NCBI GenBank assembly: GCA_903928685.1
Contig: CAIYRS010000047.1
Span: 1-44,637 of the forward strand
Reading direction: 5' to 3'
DNA from: an uncultured Methylococcaceae bacterium
Lineage (GTDB): Bacteria > Pseudomonadota > Gammaproteobacteria > Methylococcales > Methylomonadaceae
Length of the DNA stretch: 44,637 bases
Below, in pieces: positions 11,011 through 22,177 of the stretch (position 1 is the first letter of the stretch; every line of letters starts with the position of its first letter). Position numbers and translations under genes: made by a program. The notes below the pieces were generated by a model. That model had not been told where the DNA came from. It saw only the letters and a list, made by a program, of their open reading frames with translations, and made no database searches.

Positions 11011-12600
11011 ATGAAAACCCTAAAAACCACACTGGCACTTTCTATTTTGACCGCACTTTTCTCGCCCTTAAGCGCACAAGCAGATGCGTCTGGCGATAAC
11101 ATGCACCAGCTATATCAAGACAACTGCGCCAGTTGTCATGGTTCCGATCATGGCGGCTACCTTGCCCCAGCGCTCAATGCCGACACCCTCAAAGGCCGCA
11201 GCCCAACCGCCTTACGCACCATTGTTATGGCAGGCAGCTTCGATACCTTAATGCCTCCGTTTTACGGTAAACTCAACGACGACCAAATCCGTGGCGTCAT
11301 CAAACATTTGCAAAACACCCCAAAATTGCCAAACCCGGCATTCACCATAGACGACATGAAAGCGTCACTGAAAGTGTATGTCGCCGATGAAAGCATCCTG
11401 CCCAGCAAACCAACTTTCGCCATCGACAACATGGATGACGTCATTGGCGTAGCCGCGCGTGGCAAATACGGACGCGGCGAAGGCTCGCGGGCAATCTTTA
11501 TCAATAGCAAAACCCACCAAAAAATCGGCGAAGTACCCACTGGCACAGCCGCGCACATTATCGACTACAACCCCGCCAACCCACGCTGGGCCTATGTAAA
11601 AACCGATACCGCCGAAATTTTTAAAGTCGATTTATATTCCATGCAAGCCGTCCGCAGCATCAAAACAGGCTGGAATGGCCCCGGCATGGGCGTATCCCGC
11701 GACGGCAAATACATCATGGCAGGCTCATTCGTACCGCACAACGCCGTCATCCTCAATGCCGATACCTTAGAGCCATTAAAAACCTTTGAACTAGAAGGCA
11801 TAGACCCAGACGGCAAACAAGTTTCCTCCGACTCCGGCATGATACTCGGCACACCCTTTGCCGATATATTCGCCATCGCCTTAGAAAATACCGGACAAGT
11901 CTGGGTAGTCGATTTAACCGAAAGCTTCCCCGTCACCCGCATCACCGACGTAGGCCGCCATCTGCATGATGCCTTCTTAACCCACGGCGGACAAAAACTG
12001 ATGATCGCCGCTTACGACGACGGCATCGTAGCCGCCATCGACCTAAAAGACCGCAAAATCATCAAAAAACTGGAAGCAGGCTGCGTACCACACGTTGGCG
12101 GCGGCTCAGCCGTGGTTGTTGACGGGCGCACCTTAGGCTTTGGCACAAACTTTGGCGATTGCGACAAAACCGTGGTTAGCGTTTGGGACTTAGACAAGAT
12201 GGAAATCGTCAAACAAATACCGGTTGATGGCGGCACCGAATCCCCCGCCGCCCACGCCAACGCCCCGTATGTCGCCGTAGACATCATCAGCAAAGACCGC
12301 CGCGCCCGCACTATCCAATTAATCGACAAGAAAACCTTAGAAGTCGTCAAAACCCTCGATGTTGGCGGACACGCCTACTTCCCTGAATACAGCGCCGATG
12401 GCAAATTCCTCTACGTCAGCGCAGGTTACAGCGGCGATGAAGTTGTCGTTTACGATGCCAACAGCCTACAACGCCTAACCAGCATCAGCATGGAAAGCCC
12501 AGCCGGAATATTCTCCCACGGTCGCGTCCGCTACATGACCAGAGGCCTATCACCTGATGAACTGGCAGCACGCGACGGTGGCCTGCAAGGGGCAAAATAA
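11011..12600 (+). CDS. nirN: Cytochrome cd1-family protein, NirN-like (possibly NirS-like)
   Basis: This is a 529-residue periplasmic protein. The signal peptide (cut near residue 24, AQADA) is followed by a cytochrome c domain with CASCH at 39-43 and Met81 as probable sixth ligand. An eight-bladed d1-propeller domain covers about 120-510. His182 (TAAHIID) fits the proximal heme d1 ligand. The segment aligned by eye with the first distal His of NirS reads TPFADIFAIALEN, with no His. A later LHD (His319) resembles the second one. The middle part (GSFVPHNAVILNADTLEPLK) resembles NirN, the dihydro-heme d1 dehydrogenase that finishes heme d1. TAATG couples it to the next cytochrome. NirN is favoured, but a divergent nitrite reductase is not excluded. 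Confidence 0.6.
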   Translation: MKTLKTTLALSILTALFSPLSAQADASGDNMHQLYQDNCASCHGSDHGGYLAPALNADTLKGRSPTALRTIVMAGSFDTLMPPFYGKLNDDQIRGVIKHLQNTPKLPNPAFTIDDMKASLKVYVADESILPSKPTFAIDNMDDVIGVAARGKYGRGEGSRAIFINSKTHQKIGEVPTGTAAHIIDYNPANPRWAYVKTDTAEIFKVDLYSMQAVRSIKTGWNGPGMGVSRDGKYIMAGSFVPHNAVILNADTLEPLKTFELEGIDPDGKQVSSDSGMILGTPFADIFAIALENTGQVWVVDLTESFPVTRITDVGRHLHDAFLTHGGQKLMIAAYDDGIVAAIDLKDRKIIKKLEAGCVPHVGGGSAVVVDGRTLGFGTNFGDCDKTVVSVWDLDKMEIVKQIPVDGGTESPAAHANAPYVAVDIISKDRRARTIQLIDKKTLEVVKTLDVGGHAYFPEYSADGKFLYVSAGYSGDEVVVYDANSLQRLTSISMESPAGIFSHGRVRYMTRGLSPDELAARDGGLQGAK

Positions 12601-16348: not shown

Positions 16349-17512
16349 ATGAAAAAATTACTCCCCTCCCTAGCCCTACTCTGCTCACTAACCGCCCAAG
16401 CCGAACCCCGCGCCACAGGCGATTTAGGCTTGATAATAGAACGCGAAGACAGCGCGGCTTTAATTATCAACACCACAACCCACACCCAACTCGCAGAAAT
16501 AAAAGGCTTAGGCGACTTGTCCCACGCCTCGGTGGTGTTTTCGCGTGACCAACGCTATGCCTATGTGTTCGGGCGCGATGGTGGTTTAAGCAAAATTGAC
16601 TTGCTGCAAGACCAACTCACCAAACGCATCGTGCAAGCGGGTAACAGCATCGGCGGGGCGATTTCGCAGGATGGCAAATTGATTGCGGTATCCAATTACG
16701 AACCCGGCGGCGTGAAAGTGTTCGCGGCTGATACCTTGGAATTGGTCGCCGATATTCCCGCCGAATACGCGCCCGGCAAACGTTCTAAAGTGGTTGGATT
16801 AGTCGATGCGCCCGGGCAAAAATTTGTCTTTAGCCTGTTCGATGCCGGAGAAATTTGGACGCTGGATATGCGCGATACCAAGCATCCCGCCATCGCAAAA
16901 TTCAAAAATATCGGTAAAGAACCATATGACGCGTTGATGTCGCCGGAAGGGCGTTTTTACATCGCTGGATTGTTTGGCGAAAGCGGCTTGGCGTTGCTGG
17001 ATTTATGGGACACCGTCGCAGGCGTGAAACGCATTTTGCCAACGTATGGCAAAGACGACGACAAACTGCCCGTGTACAAAATGCCGCATCTGGAAGGCTG
17101 GGCCATGGCGGGCGATTTGTTGTTCGCGCCCGCGATAGGCAAACATGAAGTGCTGGTCATCAACAAACGCGATTGGACATTGCTAAAAGCCATCCCCGTA
17201 CTTGGTCAACCTGTGTTTGTGATGGCGCGGCCTGATGCACGGCAGATTTGGGTGAATTTCGCCATGCCAGACAATAACCAGTTGCAAATCATTGATGTCA
17301 AAGAGTTGGCGGTCACCAACACACTCACGCCCGGCAAAGCCGTATTGCACATGGAATTTACCCCACGCGGCGAACAAGTTTGGGTAGCCTTGCGAGATGA
17401 CAATCAAGTGCTGGTCTACGACACCGCAACCTTGCAAGAAGCCGCACGTTTGCCCGCCAAGCATCCGAACGGCATTTTTTTCAGCTCACGGGCGCATAAA
17501 ATCGGATTTTAA
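16349..17512 (+). CDS. nirF: Heme d1 biosynthesis protein NirF
   Basis: This 387-residue periplasmic d1-propeller protein has a signal peptide (MKKLLPSLALLCSLTAQA, cut before EPR) with no lipobox. The mature start GDLGLIIEREDSAALI and the blocks LGDLSHASVVFSRDQRYAYVFGRDG and IGGAISQDGKLIAVSNYEPGG are hallmarks of NirF. The fold is related to the NirS d1 domain without a cytochrome domain. NirF acts late in heme d1 synthesis and is proposed to be a dehydrogenase or d1 carrier. It starts the second block of the locus, with nirD two bases after its stop. Confidence 0.95.
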   Translation: MKKLLPSLALLCSLTAQAEPRATGDLGLIIEREDSAALIINTTTHTQLAEIKGLGDLSHASVVFSRDQRYAYVFGRDGGLSKIDLLQDQLTKRIVQAGNSIGGAISQDGKLIAVSNYEPGGVKVFAADTLELVADIPAEYAPGKRSKVVGLVDAPGQKFVFSLFDAGEIWTLDMRDTKHPAIAKFKNIGKEPYDALMSPEGRFYIAGLFGESGLALLDLWDTVAGVKRILPTYGKDDDKLPVYKMPHLEGWAMAGDLLFAPAIGKHEVLVINKRDWTLLKAIPVLGQPVFVMARPDARQIWVNFAMPDNNQLQIIDVKELAVTNTLTPGKAVLHMEFTPRGEQVWVALRDDNQVLVYDTATLQEAARLPAKHPNGIFFSSRAHKIGF

Positions 17513-17514
17513 CC

Positions 17515-17973
17515 ATGCTGACGGATTTGCATAAACACTTGTTAAACGATTTCCAGCGTGATTTCCCTTTATCGCCGACACCTTACCGCGACATTGCCGA
17601 TACGCTGGGCGTTACAGAAGCTGAGGTTCTGGCTGCCTTGGCGGAGCTGAACGAACAACAATATATTAGCCGCATTGGTGCGGTTATTCCGCCCAATCAC
17701 ATTGGTGCTAGCACCTTGGTGGCAATGGCAGTGCCAGAAGCCGAATTGCAAACCGTCGCCGACCAAATCAGCGCCTTTCCAGAGGTAAACCACAATTATG
17801 AACGCGAGCATCGCTTCAATTTATGGTTTGTCGCCGTCGCCGCTACCGCCCAGCAATTGCAAAATGTCATCGAACGCATTGAGCAACAAACGGGCTATGC
17901 GGCTTTGCAACTGCCCTTAGTGGATGATTTTTATATTGATTTAGGCTTTAAATTGGATTGGCAACATGCTTGA
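17515..17973 (+). CDS. nirD: Siroheme decarboxylase subunit NirD
   Basis: This 152-residue Lrp/AsnC-like protein has an N-terminal winged helix (SPTPYRDIADTLGVTEAEVLAALAEL) and a C-terminal alpha/beta domain with FPEVNHNYEREHRFNLWFVAV. The EVNHNYERxH segment is typical of NirD and NirG and of the related Ahb proteins. With NirL, NirG and NirH it decarboxylates siroheme to didecarboxysiroheme, an enzyme activity despite the regulator-like fold. The stop overlaps the nirL start by eight bases. Confidence 0.9.
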   Translation: MLTDLHKHLLNDFQRDFPLSPTPYRDIADTLGVTEAEVLAALAELNEQQYISRIGAVIPPNHIGASTLVAMAVPEAELQTVADQISAFPEVNHNYEREHRFNLWFVAVAATAQQLQNVIERIEQQTGYAALQLPLVDDFYIDLGFKLDWQHA

Positions 17974-18454
17974 CGCCAAAGATTTTGCATTATTGGCACA
18001 AGTCGCCGACGGCTTGCCTTTGTGTCCGCGCCCTTATGCCCAGATCGGTATGGAGTTGGGTATGGACGAAGCGGAGGTCATCACCCGATTGGCAGCTTTA
18101 AAAGCCCAAGGTTTGATTAAACGGCTAGGTGTGATCGTCAAACATCGCCCACTAGGCTACCGCGCCAATGCGATGGTGGTCTGGGATGTGCCTGATGATT
18201 TAATTAAAGAATTAGGTACATACATCAGCCGTTTCAGTTTTGTAAACCTATGTTACCAACGCCCCAGACAACCGGAATGGCCTTACAACCTGTACTGCAT
18301 GATCCACGGTAAAGACCGCGCCACGGTGCTGGCGCAATTGGAAGCGCTTAACGAAGCCTCTGCTCTGGCGGATTATGATCGGCAGATTTTGTTTAGCCGC
18401 CGTTGTTTTAAGCAGCGCGGGGCGGTTTATCAAAGGACAGCCATGTCATCGTAA
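17966..18454 (+). CDS. nirL: Siroheme decarboxylase subunit NirL
   Basis: This 162-residue Lrp-like partner of NirD has LPLCPRPYAQIGMELGMDEAEVI for the winged helix, then IKRLGVIVKHRPLGYRANAMVVWDVP and FVNLCYQRPRQPEWPYNLYCMIHGKDR. The WPYNL(Y/F)xMxHGK block marks the NirL/NirH half of the decarboxylase. The pair NirD-NirL repeats later as NirG-NirH. A candidate -10 box TATAAT at 18472-18477, just after the stop, could serve the next gene. Confidence 0.9.
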   Translation: MLDAKDFALLAQVADGLPLCPRPYAQIGMELGMDEAEVITRLAALKAQGLIKRLGVIVKHRPLGYRANAMVVWDVPDDLIKELGTYISRFSFVNLCYQRPRQPEWPYNLYCMIHGKDRATVLAQLEALNEASALADYDRQILFSRRCFKQRGAVYQRTAMSS

Positions 18455-18515
18455 CGTTTGCCAAAAATCATTATAATGGCCTTGCCGAACAAAAACTTAC
18501 CTACTACAACCGAAT

Positions 18516-18890
18516 ATGAACGCCATCCCTATTGATACCTTACAAATTGCCAATCGTTTAAAAGCGGTGGGTTTTACCGATGCACAAGCCGCCGTCATCA
18601 CCGAAATCCAGCGCGAAACCAGTAACGAAACCTTGCAACAAGCTATCCATGACTACCATCTTGACGATGTCGCCACCAAACGGGATTTAAAAGAGATGGA
18701 AACGGCACTCAAGCGCGACATCAAGGAACTGGAAACCAACCTTGACCACAAAATTGAATTGCTCAGGGCAGATACCGGACGGTTAATCGCCGAAACCAAA
18801 GCGGATTTAACGCGCTGGATTATTGGCGCGGGCTTTTTGCAAACCACGTTGATTATTGGCGTGCTATTAAAACTTGGCAAACTGATCTGA
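18516..18890 (+). CDS. Coiled-coil protein with C-terminal membrane helix (DUF1640-like)
   Basis: In this 124-residue protein the first part, ANRLKAVGFTDAQAAVITEIQRE, is followed by a charged coiled coil (residues 50-98, KRDLKEMETALKRDIKELET and DHKIELLRADTGRLIAETK) and a C-terminal hydrophobic helix (WIIGAGFLQTTLIIGVLLKLG). This is the layout of bacterial DUF1640/CCDC90-type proteins, which are often found near mobile genes or toxin loci. It interrupts nirL and nirG, which are normally adjacent. Its stop overlaps the nirG start (TGATG). No role in heme synthesis is expected. Confidence 0.75.
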   Translation: MNAIPIDTLQIANRLKAVGFTDAQAAVITEIQRETSNETLQQAIHDYHLDDVATKRDLKEMETALKRDIKELETNLDHKIELLRADTGRLIAETKADLTRWIIGAGFLQTTLIIGVLLKLGKLI

Positions 18891-19354
18891 TGGCATTTGC
18901 CAGCCAAACGATGGATAAAATCGACCGTGACATTATTAACACCTTACAAGTCGGTTTTCCGATTTGTGATGCACCTTACCGCCAAGTCGCGCAATTGCTA
19001 GACATCAGTGAAAGCGAATTATTGGCGCGTTTGCAAGCCTTATTGGAAAACGGCACGTTGACCCGTTTCGGGCCGCTGTACAACGCCGAACAAATGGGCG
19101 GCGCGTTGACTTTAGCTGCCGTGAAAATCCCCACCGAACACTTTGAAGAAGTCACCGACATCATCAACGCTTTTCCTGAAGTTGCGCACAATTATGCGCG
19201 TAGCCATGAATTGAACATGTGGTTTGTGCTGGCGACGGAAACGCCAGAGCAACAACAGCACACCATCAGAGCGATTGAACAACAAACAGGCTTGGCTGTG
19301 TTCAACATGCCCAAGCTGAAAGAATATTTTGTCAATTTGAAATTAACTGCATAG
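18890..19354 (+). CDS. nirG: Siroheme decarboxylase subunit NirG
   Basis: This 154-residue Lrp-like protein is paralogous to NirD. It has FPICDAPYRQVAQLLDISESELLARL, RFGPLYNAEQMGGALTLAAVKIP and FPEVAHNYARSHELNMWFVL. An alternative start, MDKIDRD at 18911, would remove the non-conserved MAFASQT and is about as likely. The stop is followed two bases later by a foreign-looking nuclease gene. Confidence 0.9.
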   Translation: MAFASQTMDKIDRDIINTLQVGFPICDAPYRQVAQLLDISESELLARLQALLENGTLTRFGPLYNAEQMGGALTLAAVKIPTEHFEEVTDIINAFPEVAHNYARSHELNMWFVLATETPEQQQHTIRAIEQQTGLAVFNMPKLKEYFVNLKLTA

Positions 19355-19356
19355 AA

Positions 19357-19794
19357 ATGAATACCCTACAAATTGGTAGAGCTGGCGAATTACTCGTCCA
19401 ATATAAATTACTTAAATTCGGCATTGATTCATCAGCATTAACAACGGATTCGGGAATTGATCTTGTCGCCTATTCAACAAGAATAAAAGAAGCGCGAACC
19501 ATTCAAGTAAAAGCCAATGAGAAAGCAAAACCTGGTGGTGGTTTAGGTTCACTCGCATTAGATTGGTGGCTTCGCATTGATTCACCTGCGGATTTTGTAG
19601 CCATTGCTTGTTTAGACTCAAATGAAGCTTGGCTATTTACTCATAAAGAATTCTCTGAGGCCGCACAACAAAGCTCTAATGGTCGTGTTCATTTCTATAT
19701 GTACATAGAAGATAGCGTTAAAACAAAGAAAAAGGCATTAAAAAGTCAGTTTAATGAATTCTTATTGGAAAATAGGGTGAGTGAATTACTGTAA
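19357..19794 (+). CDS. PD-(D/E)XK nuclease-like protein
   Basis: This 145-residue protein has the core of a restriction-endonuclease-like fold: IGRAGELLVQYKLLKFGI (Glu of the first helix), TTDSGIDLVAYS (the Asp), and RTIQVKANEK (QxK in place of ExK). The later DFVAIACLDSNEAWLFTHKEF fits the remaining strands. Similar proteins are annotated as group I intron-associated or prokaryotic PD-(D/E)XK nucleases. The start follows nirG by two bases, so it could be translated from the nir transcript. Its A+T content is higher than that of nirG and nirH, which points to insertion. Confidence 0.7.
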   Translation: MNTLQIGRAGELLVQYKLLKFGIDSSALTTDSGIDLVAYSTRIKEARTIQVKANEKAKPGGGLGSLALDWWLRIDSPADFVAIACLDSNEAWLFTHKEFSEAAQQSSNGRVHFYMYIEDSVKTKKKALKSQFNEFLLENRVSELL

Positions 19795-19859
19795 TCGCTT
19801 CAATGAGCCACCACATTCAATTTACTCACTTTATTTTTCAAGAATGTTAGAAATTTGAC

Positions 19860-20912
19860 ATGAATCCAATCGACCGCCTCATCATGCGCGCCACCCAAGC
19901 GGGCTTGCCGCTTACGCCTGAGCCCTATCAAACCCTAGCCGAACAATTGGGTTTAACTAAAGAAGACATCATGCAACGCATGGCGACGATGCAAACCAGC
20001 GGCATTATCCGCCGTATCGGCGCAGTGCCTAATCATTACAAACTCGGCTACCGTTTTAATGGCATGACGGTATGGGATGTGCCGGACGATAAGATTGACG
20101 AACTCGGCCAACAAGTCGGGCAACTGCCGTTTGTCAGCCATTGCTACCACCGCCCACGGCATCTGCCCGATTGGCCTTATAATTTATTTGCGATGGTGCA
20201 TGGCAAAACGCAAGCAGAAGCGGATGGGCAAATCGTGCAGATTGCGGAGGTGTTGGGCGAGCATTGTCGCGGTAGGGATGTGTTGTATAGCACGAAGATA
20301 TTGAAGAAGACGGGATTTCGTAGCGGCGACCGGCTGGTCGCCGTTCAAGAACGAGCAATTAATAATCAACAGTCACAACCAACCCGCATAGTAAGTAGAA
20401 AATCCATCCGCCTTCCAAACTATGACTACAGCCAAAATGGTGCCTACTTCATCACGCTCTGTACACATAACCGAACCTGCTTGTTTGGTGAAATACAAAA
20501 CGGCATCATGCAAGCCAACACTTATGGCAATTTAATAATAGAAGAATGGCAAAAATCAGCGGCTATCAGAAATGAAATTGAATTGGACGAATTTGTCCTA
20601 ATGCCTAACCACATCCACGCGATTGTTTTTATTCAACGTAGCGGCGAGCGGCTGCTCGCCGACCAATCCTCGACAAAACCAAACAAACATCTCAAACCTA
20701 AATCATTAGGGGCTTTGGTGACGGGCTTTAAATCAAGCGTCACCGCCAAAATCAACACGCAACGCAATTCTCCAGGGCAAGCCATTTGGCAACGAAATTA
20801 TTATGACCGTGTGTTAAGGGATGAGGGTGAGCTGTTGCGGGCAAGGGAGTATATTGTCAATAACCCTATGCAATGGGATTTAGACGAAGAGAATCCAGAA
20901 TACCGCAAATAA
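19860..20912 (+). CDS. nirH: NirH fused in frame to a REP-associated tyrosine transposase (RAYT)
   Basis: The product has 350 residues. Residues 1-154 are a complete NirH (siroheme decarboxylase subunit): winged helix PEPYQTLAEQLGLTKED, FVSHCYHRPRHLPDWPYNLF, MVHGK, ending ILKKTGFR where NirH normally stops. Residues 155-164 (SGDRLVAVQE) are a translated REP palindrome. From about 178 follows a Y1 transposase: SRKSIRLPNYDYSQNGAYFI, the metal-binding HIH at 251-253 (MPNHIHAIV), and Tyr331 in REYIVNNPMQW. A second REP is translated as RSGERLLA at 260-267. No Met or other start lies between the halves, so the RAYT has no independent start. This may be a functional two-domain protein or a recent insertion that removed the nirH stop. 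Confidence 0.9.
   Translation: MNPIDRLIMRATQAGLPLTPEPYQTLAEQLGLTKEDIMQRMATMQTSGIIRRIGAVPNHYKLGYRFNGMTVWDVPDDKIDELGQQVGQLPFVSHCYHRPRHLPDWPYNLFAMVHGKTQAEADGQIVQIAEVLGEHCRGRDVLYSTKILKKTGFRSGDRLVAVQERAINNQQSQPTRIVSRKSIRLPNYDYSQNGAYFITLCTHNRTCLFGEIQNGIMQANTYGNLIIEEWQKSAAIRNEIELDEFVLMPNHIHAIVFIQRSGERLLADQSSTKPNKHLKPKSLGALVTGFKSSVTAKINTQRNSPGQAIWQRNYYDRVLRDEGELLRAREYIVNNPMQWDLDEENPEYRK
20320..20343 (+). repeat. REP palindrome 1 (inside fused CDS)
   Basis: GTAG followed by CGGCGACC-GGCT-GGTCGCCG, a perfect 8-bp stem. It is translated in frame as the linker between NirH and the transposase. Confidence 0.88.
20638..20661 (+). repeat. REP palindrome 2 (inside RAYT coding region)
   Basis: GTAG followed by CGGCGAGC-GGCT-GCTCGCCG, the same layout as REP 1 with one base pair exchanged. 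It lies in the variable loop of the transposase after the HIH motif. Confidence 0.88.
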
Positions 20913-20929
20913 TCAATCTCTGGGCTAAA

Positions 20930-20953
20930 CGGCGAGCAGCCGCTCGCCGCTAC
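20930..20953 (-). repeat. REP palindrome 3 (inverted)
   Basis: CGGCGAGC-AGCC-GCTCGCCG followed by CTAC, the exact reverse complement of REP 2. It lies 17 bases after the fused gene's stop. Confidence 0.88.
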
Positions 20954-20996
20954 AGCACCTCAGTTATTTGCCCATCATTCCCTTAATTTGATTTGT

Positions 20997-21020
20997 CGGC
21001 GACTAACCAGTCGACGCTAC
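20997..21020 (-). repeat. REP palindrome 4 (inverted, degenerate)
   Basis: CGGCGACT-AACC-AGTCGACG followed by CTAC, with one stem mismatch. It lies 17 bases before the nirJ ATG and could form a hairpin near the translation start. Confidence 0.8.
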
Positions 21021-21037
21021 CACTAAGTAAATATTTT

Positions 21038-22177
21038 ATGTTCCGACTCAGCCAATACATGCGCGAACTTATCGCGCCCACGCCCATAAAACTCACGCGC
21101 AAACCTGCCGCGCCTGTGGTGATTTGGAACTTAATCCGCCGCTGTAATCTTACTTGTAAACATTGCTACACCACCTCAGCCGATGTCGATTTTCCGGGGG
21201 AGTTGACCACACCGGAAATTTACACGGTGATGGACGACCTGAAAGCCTTTAAAGTCCCGGTGCTGATTTTGTCCGGCGGCGAGCCGTTGCTGCATCCTGA
21301 TATTTTTGCCATTTCCCGCCGCGCTAAGGACATGGGTTTTTATGTGGCCTTATCGAGCAACGGCACGAAAATCTCCAAAGACAATATCGATCAAATTGCC
21401 GAACTAAATTACCAATATATCGGCGTCAGTTTAGATGGCATTAAAGGCACGCATGATGATTTCCGGCGAGTGAAAGGCTCGTTTGATGAAGCCATGCGCG
21501 GCATCCATTTGTGTTTGGATAAAGGCATTAAAGTCGGTATTCGCTTTACGCTGACCGAAGACAATTACCACGATTTTCCGGCTTTATTGCAATTGATGGA
21601 TGACCATGACATCGACAAATTTTATCTGTCGCATTTGAATTATGGCGGACGTGGCAACCGCAACCGTAAAGACGACGCGCATTTTGACCGCACCCGCACG
21701 GCGATGGATTTAATGTTTGAAACTTGTTACGACTGGCTAAGTGCAGGCAAGGACAGGGAGTTTGTCACGGGCAATAACGATGCCGATGCCGTGTATTTTT
21801 TGCATTGGGTGCGCCGCCGTTTTCCTGAACAAGCCGTACATATCCAAGCTAAACTCGCGCAATGGGGCGGCAATTCGTCGGGGGTGAATGTTGCTAATAT
21901 CGACAATTTGGGTAATGTCCATCCTGATACGTTTTGGTGGCACTATCACTTAGGTAATGTGAAGCAACGCCCGTTTTCTGAGATTTGGCAGGATGTGTCT
22001 GATCCGGTGATGGCGGGATTAAAACAAAGCCCTAGGCCGCTGGAAGGCCGTTGTGCAAGTTGCCATTATCAAGCAATTTGTAACGGCAACACACGGGTTC
22101 GGGCGATGCAGATGACGGGTAATGTCTGGGCGGAAGATCCGGGTTGTTATTTGTCTTTAGAAGAAATTGGCGTTTAG
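21038..22177 (+). CDS. nirJ: Heme d1 biosynthesis radical SAM protein NirJ
   Basis: This 379-residue protein starts at MFRLSQYMREL. A longer in-frame start would read through REP 4. The radical SAM cluster motif is Cys36-x3-Cys40-x2-Cys43 (NLIRRCNLTCKHCYTT), followed by ILSGGEPLLHPD and GVSLDG. The C-terminal SPASM-like part has CASCHYQAIC and NTRVRAMQ, with a final Cys in EDPGCYLS for an auxiliary cluster. NirJ replaces the propionate side chains of didecarboxysiroheme with oxo groups. It ends the locus, one base from a convergent ABC permease gene. Confidence 0.94.
   Translation: MFRLSQYMRELIAPTPIKLTRKPAAPVVIWNLIRRCNLTCKHCYTTSADVDFPGELTTPEIYTVMDDLKAFKVPVLILSGGEPLLHPDIFAISRRAKDMGFYVALSSNGTKISKDNIDQIAELNYQYIGVSLDGIKGTHDDFRRVKGSFDEAMRGIHLCLDKGIKVGIRFTLTEDNYHDFPALLQLMDDHDIDKFYLSHLNYGGRGNRNRKDDAHFDRTRTAMDLMFETCYDWLSAGKDREFVTGNNDADAVYFLHWVRRRFPEQAVHIQAKLAQWGGNSSGVNVANIDNLGNVHPDTFWWHYHLGNVKQRPFSEIWQDVSDPVMAGLKQSPRPLEGRCASCHYQAICNGNTRVRAMQMTGNVWAEDPGCYLSLEEIGV

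Follow-up and report, generated by a model that had tools for sequence, protein, structure and literature searches.

The closest described relatives of the locus reported here are the REPtrons of TnpAREP/RAYT subclass 2.4 (group 4), in which a REP-associated tyrosine transposase (RAYT) with an HUH-Tyr core has a GTAG-REP on its left, a REP within the gene and inverted REPs 3' of it, with one close copy per genome. The available text of PMC6006769 names the insertion of a REP inside the gene as a peculiarity of TnpAREP subclass 2.4. According to the accessible portion of PMC8266576, TnpAREP cleaves at CT or CA and uses GTAG as a guide, not as the cleavage site, and the accessible portion of PMC3733652 describes REPs at gene 3' ends, where GTAG REPs often supply the stop codon of flanking genes, as well as REPs that lie within ORFs and are translated. 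IS200/IS605 elements (IS608, ISDra2) share the HUH-Y1 fold (2vjv, 2xm3) and hairpin ends. For the metabolic partner, a NirD/NirH-type unit joined to a C-terminal partner is found in the two-unit NirD-like structures 4ch7 and 4czc, which we take to be NirDL (4ch7 has two matched stretches in one chain). No report of RAYT gene movement was found in the RAYT literature examined, and searches of the open-licence literature turned up no RAYT joined to a metabolic gene.

The locus lies within a stretch of 44,637 nucleotides that was analysed as a whole (the window). Unlike the subclass 2.4 REPtrons, it lacks a start codon of its own close to the RAYT core and continues the reading frame of the host gene upstream; unlike the REPs in the accessible portion of PMC3733652, its translated REP is followed by a whole RAYT gene in the same frame. 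In contrast to IS200/IS605 elements, there is a single close copy with REP ends and a GTAG guide, and in contrast to 4ch7 and 4czc, where the partner is a unit of the same family, the partner is a transposase. The ORF at 19860–20912, confirmed in the window sequence, starts with ATG on the plus strand and encodes 350 residues, which comprise a complete NirH and a RAYT joined through a translated REP hairpin. The features of the locus are as follows.

16349–19354, plus strand: rest of the heme d1 operon (nirF, nirD, nirL, nirG), including the foreign ORF 18516–18890
19860–20324, plus strand: nirH (siroheme decarboxylase beta subunit, AhbB type, by NF040707), residues 1–155 of the fusion, native end Phe-Arg-Ser
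20280–20303, plus strand: GTG141, TTG142 and TTG148, in frame at the NirH end, where the RAYT might be started internally
20320–20323, plus strand: GTAG in which the native nirH codons (CGT AGC) and the left REP's foot coincide; 11 of 14 congeners have GTAG in the corresponding codons
20320–20343, plus strand: left REP hairpin of the REPtron, translated, matching the pattern with 0 mismatches
20344–20396, plus strand: RAYT leader, open in the nirH frame and free of in-frame ATG, GTG and TTG
20397–20912, plus strand: RAYT core (residues 180–350), with HIH at 20610–20618, Tyr331 at 20850–20852 and the stop at 20910–20912
20638–20661, plus strand: second REP (REP pattern), in frame within the RAYT, between HUH and Tyr
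20930–20953, minus strand: inverted REP, 24 of 24 bases identical to the internal REP (20638–20661)
20997–21020, minus strand: outer inverted REP, putative right end of the REPtron, with 2 mismatches to the pattern and a GAC/GTC stem as in the left REP
21021–21030, plus strand: putative remnant of the native nirH 3' end, which with 20319–20323 would read R-S-T-K-stop
21038–22177, plus strand: nirJ (TIGR04051, 631.6 bits), start at 21038

The REPs around the RAYT, at 20320 (plus), 20638 (plus, inside the gene), 20930 (minus) and 20997 (minus), stand in the order of a REPtron; the outer two have GAC/GTC stems and the inner two GAG/CTC stems. As RNA, the REP at 20320–20343 folds into a hairpin at -18.5 kcal/mol (z -3.8). 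A longer TTG ORF of nirJ, from 20993, would start just 5' of the outer REP; the context of the nirJ ATG is identical in the four congener loci read. A sequence-only reading of this DNA had described a complete NirH that continues through a translated REP into a RAYT with intact HIH (251–253) and Tyr331. All three elements were borne out: NirH scores 178.9 bits on NF040707 (AhbB equivalog; cut-off 125) over residues 8–154, the reading frame runs through the REP at 20320–20343, and H251, H253 and Y331, the HUH motif and single catalytic Tyr, lie in columns that are 98–100% conserved in 98 homologs. Absent from that reading were the internal REP at 20638–20661 and the inverted REPs at 20930–20953 and 20997–21020, as was a REPtron-like arrival with its own ends that meets a native GTAG.

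By motif and homology, the RAYT half belongs to the RAYT/TnpAREP family, with REP binding and nicking predicted. It scores 66–69 bits on NF047646 (66.1 for residues 190–343), under the cut-off of 80, which is a curators' threshold and not a biological trait; because all eight homologs scanned with this model likewise fall under the cut-off, at 66–73 bits, the shortfall seems to be a property of this RAYT subgroup. PF01797 scores the tail alone at 23.6 (cut-off 23) and the whole fusion at 21.1; run across the same genome, this model returned another Y1 gene, C108 (a 35% match over half of the query), and missed the fusion ORF. An AlphaFold2 model of the tail, built with 28 sequences (mean pLDDT 80.9), had as its first PDB match 4er8, the E. 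coli TnpAREP-REP complex (E 1.2e-6, TM 0.54/0.63), followed by the IS200/IS605 transposases 2vjv and 2xm3; as modelled, the RAYT half has a TnpAREP-like fold. The REP at 20638–20661, in frame within the gene, is the feature of subclass 2.4 (RAYT group 4), an assignment made solely by this internal REP and the available text of PMC6006769 and not by that paper's models or tree. Translated palindromes (such as GDRPVAPT and GPRACPD), sometimes in tandem, fill the HUH-Tyr linker in the homologous loci L043, L042, L052 and L194, and in L043 a translated palindrome also lies 5' of the core.

One close copy of the RAYT is present in its own genome. A search with the tail gave matches at E <= 0.001 in 75 of 151 genomes (own included), with the best full-length relative 51% identical and shorter segments up to 63%. 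In the genome_contigs search, from which records of the own genome were possibly excluded, the best relative was 53% identical among the best 80 of at least 571 confirmed matches (at least 589 stretches), and the plasmid and phage searches gave matches below 60% identity only.

Besides its NF040707 score, the NirH half matches AsnC_trans_reg2 and the NirdL-like HTH in Pfam, and over 153 residues it is 91.5% identical to the NirH of congener G001 and 88.9% to that of G010. It sits in an operon ordered nirF-D-L-G-H-J. By model score and operon place it is a siroheme decarboxylase beta subunit, predicted to decarboxylate together with a partner. For nirD and nirG, AhbA is the best fit yet remains below its cut-off (118 and 114 bits versus 140); the first gene, with a Cytochrom_D1 match, we take from that match and its operon place to be nirF. 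Two foreign ORFs interrupt the operon: one at 18516–18890, between nirL and nirG, which encodes a CCDC90-like coiled-coil protein, and, between nirG and nirH, an ORF at 19357–19794 with a weak Mrr_cat_2 match (20.4 bits, cut-off 22) and a GC3 of 0.27. Neither was found in 15 congener stretches, two of them partial (tblastn, E <= 1e-5). Besides the NirF-like protein, the genome holds one strong cytochrome d1 match only (window 11011–12600), nearer to 6rtd, presumably NirN (E 8.7e-41), than to the cd1 nitrite reductases (2e-22). No clear NirS was seen in the whole genome, despite the heme d1 operon; a PmoA/AmoA-type gene is present.

To gauge NirH with its tail, changes were counted against two sisters and three outgroups, giving 5–9 changes on the window branch only versus 3–7 on the sister branch only. 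The window branch was ahead in 5 of 6 comparisons, by up to 9 versus 4; nirF and nirG show a lead as large or larger in some comparisons, and nirD, nirL and nirJ mostly show the reverse, with fewer changes on the window branch. On these counts the tail has left no clear sign of harm to NirH, which does not in itself prove constraint.

A search of the genus with the whole fusion covered 20 genomes, own included, and found the fusion in one species only. The nirH 3' end was readable in 14 other genomes, the remainder being G012, where it is cut by a contig end, and G008, G015, G016 and G018, which gave no NirH match. None of the 14 has a tail: all encode Phe-Arg-Ser and reach a stop 1–5 residues later. 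Because all 14 readable ends lack it, the comparison gives tail-less NirH as the ancestral state and the tail as an addition. The look at close relatives that the sequence-only reading had proposed thus points to a recent fusion; a NirH tail of long standing was searched for in these relatives and seen in none of the 14. Downstream, nirJ follows nirH here and in 6 of 15 congener stretches, and in the others it is not contained in the stretch. In G001 and G010 (L063 and L064) the nirH-nirJ spacer is ~1.5 kb long and presumably holds AbrB/VapC-type cassettes, to judge by appearance; its length and content vary among the congeners read.

The shared gene order speaks against a chimeric contig. A mis-join of short reads at the REP is conceivable, as REPs are repeats and the draft is in 117 contigs, but the sequence of the junction REP occurs once among 52 matches, the join lies mid-contig, and nirJ keeps the same order as in six congeners; we consider such an assembly artefact very improbable indeed.

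We consider it probable, instead, that a recent REPtron insertion at the 3' end of nirH happened to read through. A REPtron of the internal-REP kind, ~700 bp in length (20320–21020), would have entered the nirH-nirJ junction in one species, with the GTAG foot of its left REP laid on nirH's own GTAG in the Phe-Arg-Ser codons. In the phase CGT-AGC, translation would then cross the hairpin and leader and enter the RAYT core, so that the main RAYT product would probably be a NirH-RAYT chimera from the nir operon mRNA, and NirH would work with a C-terminal tail. As regards the joining point, 11 of the 14 congeners have GTAG in the last conserved nirH codons (CGT AGY), and the GTAG of the left REP falls exactly on this place; to judge from the congeners, nirH very probably carried GTAG in its Phe-Arg-Ser codons before the insertion.

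The position of the left REP, 77 nt 5' of the RAYT core, was compared with that in the homologs. A GT(A/G)G hairpin lies 66–95 nt 5' of the core in 16 of 108 homologous loci, the scan finding none at this distance in the other 92. Where 700 nt or more of upstream sequence was available (97 loci), 12 loci have the hairpin at this distance, versus 1 in a control interval placed 500 nt farther upstream. Because 77 nt matches the place seen in the homologs, the junction REP is probably the element's own left REP and not a stray one. Left REPs lie near the end of a co-directional frame of at least 120 codons in 5 of these 16 homologs versus 29 of 553 random positions from the same loci, where near means that the frame ends between 60 bp upstream and 8 bp downstream of the REP start; in one of the five, the frame ends at the TAG of the REP. 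When the 16 REP-flanked homologs were set at the nirH place, 7 were in phase and 4 were open, which indicates that read-through needs no selection. The domain matches and the REPs (52 pattern hits in the genome versus 5 for the reversed pattern) exceed chance; the open junction alone does not, because in this phase 4 of the 16 REP-flanked homologs would likewise be open. The sequence-only reading had offered either capture of a host gene's expression by a RAYT or a tolerated accident at the nirH stop codon. An accident at the nirH 3' end is the better supported, REPs being known at gene 3' ends (accessible portion of PMC3733652), and capture of host expression is a possible but less well supported reading.

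The right boundary was placed tentatively by reading the flanks. With the insert taken as 20324–21020 (697 bp, from after GTAG to the CTAC of the outer REP), they read Phe-Arg-Ser-Thr-Lys-stop, 7 nt before the nirJ ATG. That the ten bases at 21021–21030 restore a short native nirH end is suggestive only and is treated as a guess, because a stop at a comparable distance would result from 34 of the 119 possible right ends; for the same reason, the restored stop was dropped as proof of a clean insertion. In P. fluorescens, excised REPINs leave a few bases of one end (available text of PMC3116915). The spacer 3' of the RAYT gave no match in the congener stretches beyond REPs and words of 12–13 bases at chance level, so the insertion may have been a clean one or part of a larger replacement.

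A second REPtron, in G112, has the same order of parts, a RAYT ~50% identical and a unit of 644 bp from left to right REP. The genus of G112 contributed 10 genomes, 9 of them matching (G112 included), and the junction was compared in all 8 others: all 8 lack the REPtron at this gene junction, where the flanks align with 3–101 bp between them. HPEG are the last residues encoded by the gene upstream of the G112 REPtron, and the REP's TAG serves as the stop codon of that gene; in nirH the GTAG falls in another phase, CGT-AGC, which makes no stop, and the frame continues. GTAG stands at the junction place in none of the eight congeners of G112, so such a join does not always need a native GTAG. 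We accordingly gave up the native GTAG as a general rule, which holds for nirH (11 of 14) and fails in G112 (0 of 8), and kept it only as the joining point in nirH.

The same comparisons bear on a two-step origin, in which the REPtron first settled in the nirH-nirJ spacer behind an intact stop, and recombination or slippage of the native GTAGC (or of GTAGCGGC) with the left REP then deleted that stop. At the nirH end, three congeners (G003, G004 and G005) have GTAGCGGC, which resembles the REP foot over 8 bases; the nirH-nirJ spacer differs much among the congeners read, and no native spacer was recognised 3' of the RAYT. However, this course needs two events, and the G112 REPtron joins the gene end directly; we regard it as doubtful.

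If the REPtron was inserted directly at the nirH end, as we prefer, the question arises of how its RAYT could be made. We counted start codons in the 106 homologs with a covered core start, the core here beginning at residue 180. An ATG, GTG or TTG lies no more than 31 codons 5' of the core in 103 of them, with an ATG in 91. The fair limit is 31 codons because the window's TTG148 would pass a limit of 40, under which 104 of the 106 have a start and 95 an ATG. The three that fail are L043, whose start lies 34 codons up with a translated palindrome between, and L122 and L186, which have no start codon before the upstream stop. In the window the nearest in-frame start is TTG148, 32 codons 5' of the core and inside NirH. 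A start codon of its own near the core, usual for RAYTs though not defining, is absent here, and because 103 of 106 homologs have one within 31 codons, this RAYT seems to have lost its own start.

The sequence-only reading had claimed that no start codon separates the two halves, which is correct for ATG, GTG and TTG over residues 149–207. Its further claim that the RAYT and NirH can be made only as a fusion was too strong, given the in-frame GTG141, TTG142 and TTG148 at the NirH end. Translation of the RAYT alone from one of these codons, with NirH still tailed, would be compatible with the insertion we favour. TTG142 is preceded by AGGGATGTG, and in some homologs GTG or TTG is the only kind of start near the core. 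The nirH of G010, however, has these codons in the same stretch, so they are native to nirH and did not arise for the RAYT; the REP hairpin separates them from the core, and no promoter-like site was found on the plus strand from 19700 to 21100. We think an internal start rather improbable. Since no start codon is nearer than TTG148, the RAYT is probably made mainly as the NirH-RAYT fusion, and translation of the chimera would follow from the frame. The stricter version, that the REPtron, a kind of element not known to move as a unit, transposed as one into the nirH GTAG and that the only RAYT is a chimera supplied by the heme d1 (denitrification) operon, the transposase having thereby taken over the expression of a host gene, we regard as quite unlikely. 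In L181 (Chloroflexi bacterium TC_15), a radical-SAM-like frame of ~350 codons, named by eye, is open into a RAYT that has its own ATG, possibly an earlier stage of the same kind of fusion.

The RAYT half could also be a dead passenger, an inert tail that lost its start and has not decayed since the insertion is young, which is compatible with the origin we prefer. It has no start near the core and occurs in one species only. Of the 36 columns at least 90% conserved in the 98 homologs it keeps 33 (0.92; median homolog 0.97), a low rank with 8 of 98 homologs below and 4 equal, and two of the three changed positions are 316–317, 5' of the Tyr. Against this, the core has no stop and no frameshift over 171 codons and retains the HUH motif, the Tyr and those 33 residues; moreover, according to the available text of PMC6006769, D and R occur at the equivalent positions in other REP-using subclasses, the equation with 316–317, via the spacing from W310-Q311, being ours. 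We hold a dead passenger to be possible, at somewhat less than even prospects.

Strict REP pattern copies number 48 here, 8 in G001, 1 in G010 and 0 in 17 other congeners. This expansion was considered as proof of RAYT activity and dropped: among 27 REP loci read (of 52), 20 carry a left and 16 a right flank motif of a longer palindromic repeat, by a lax test that allows 3 mismatches and also fired left of the REP at 20638. Because most loci read have such flank motifs, the REP numbers are no evidence of RAYT activity. In the genome itself (G000; for example loci L083, L093 and L100), many of the ~50 REP copies stand as inverted pairs inside a longer imperfect palindrome, a MITE-like repeat with flank motifs near TTGTCGGTATT and TTAACCCGACAA, whose REP has few or no copies in each of the 19 congeners searched.

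The wider search for other NirH-Y1_Tnp-type fusions, also proposed by the sequence-only reading, was run on 369 genomes from the class. It gave 29 genomes with a match at E <= 1e-15 (38 rows, the own row included), and the three longest other frames, judged by eye, contained no real fusion.

Overall, the fusion represents one way in which a host gene can gain a DNA-nicking domain, namely through the reading phase of a REP. The two REPtrons, of which the one in nirH lies at a native GTAG, are absent from the same junctions in the congeners examined (14 of 14 and 8 of 8) and so provide pairs of occupied and empty sites for testing movement and the chemistry of joining. The recent-looking insertion in nirH bears on whether the 'tame' transposase genes of the RAYT class still move.
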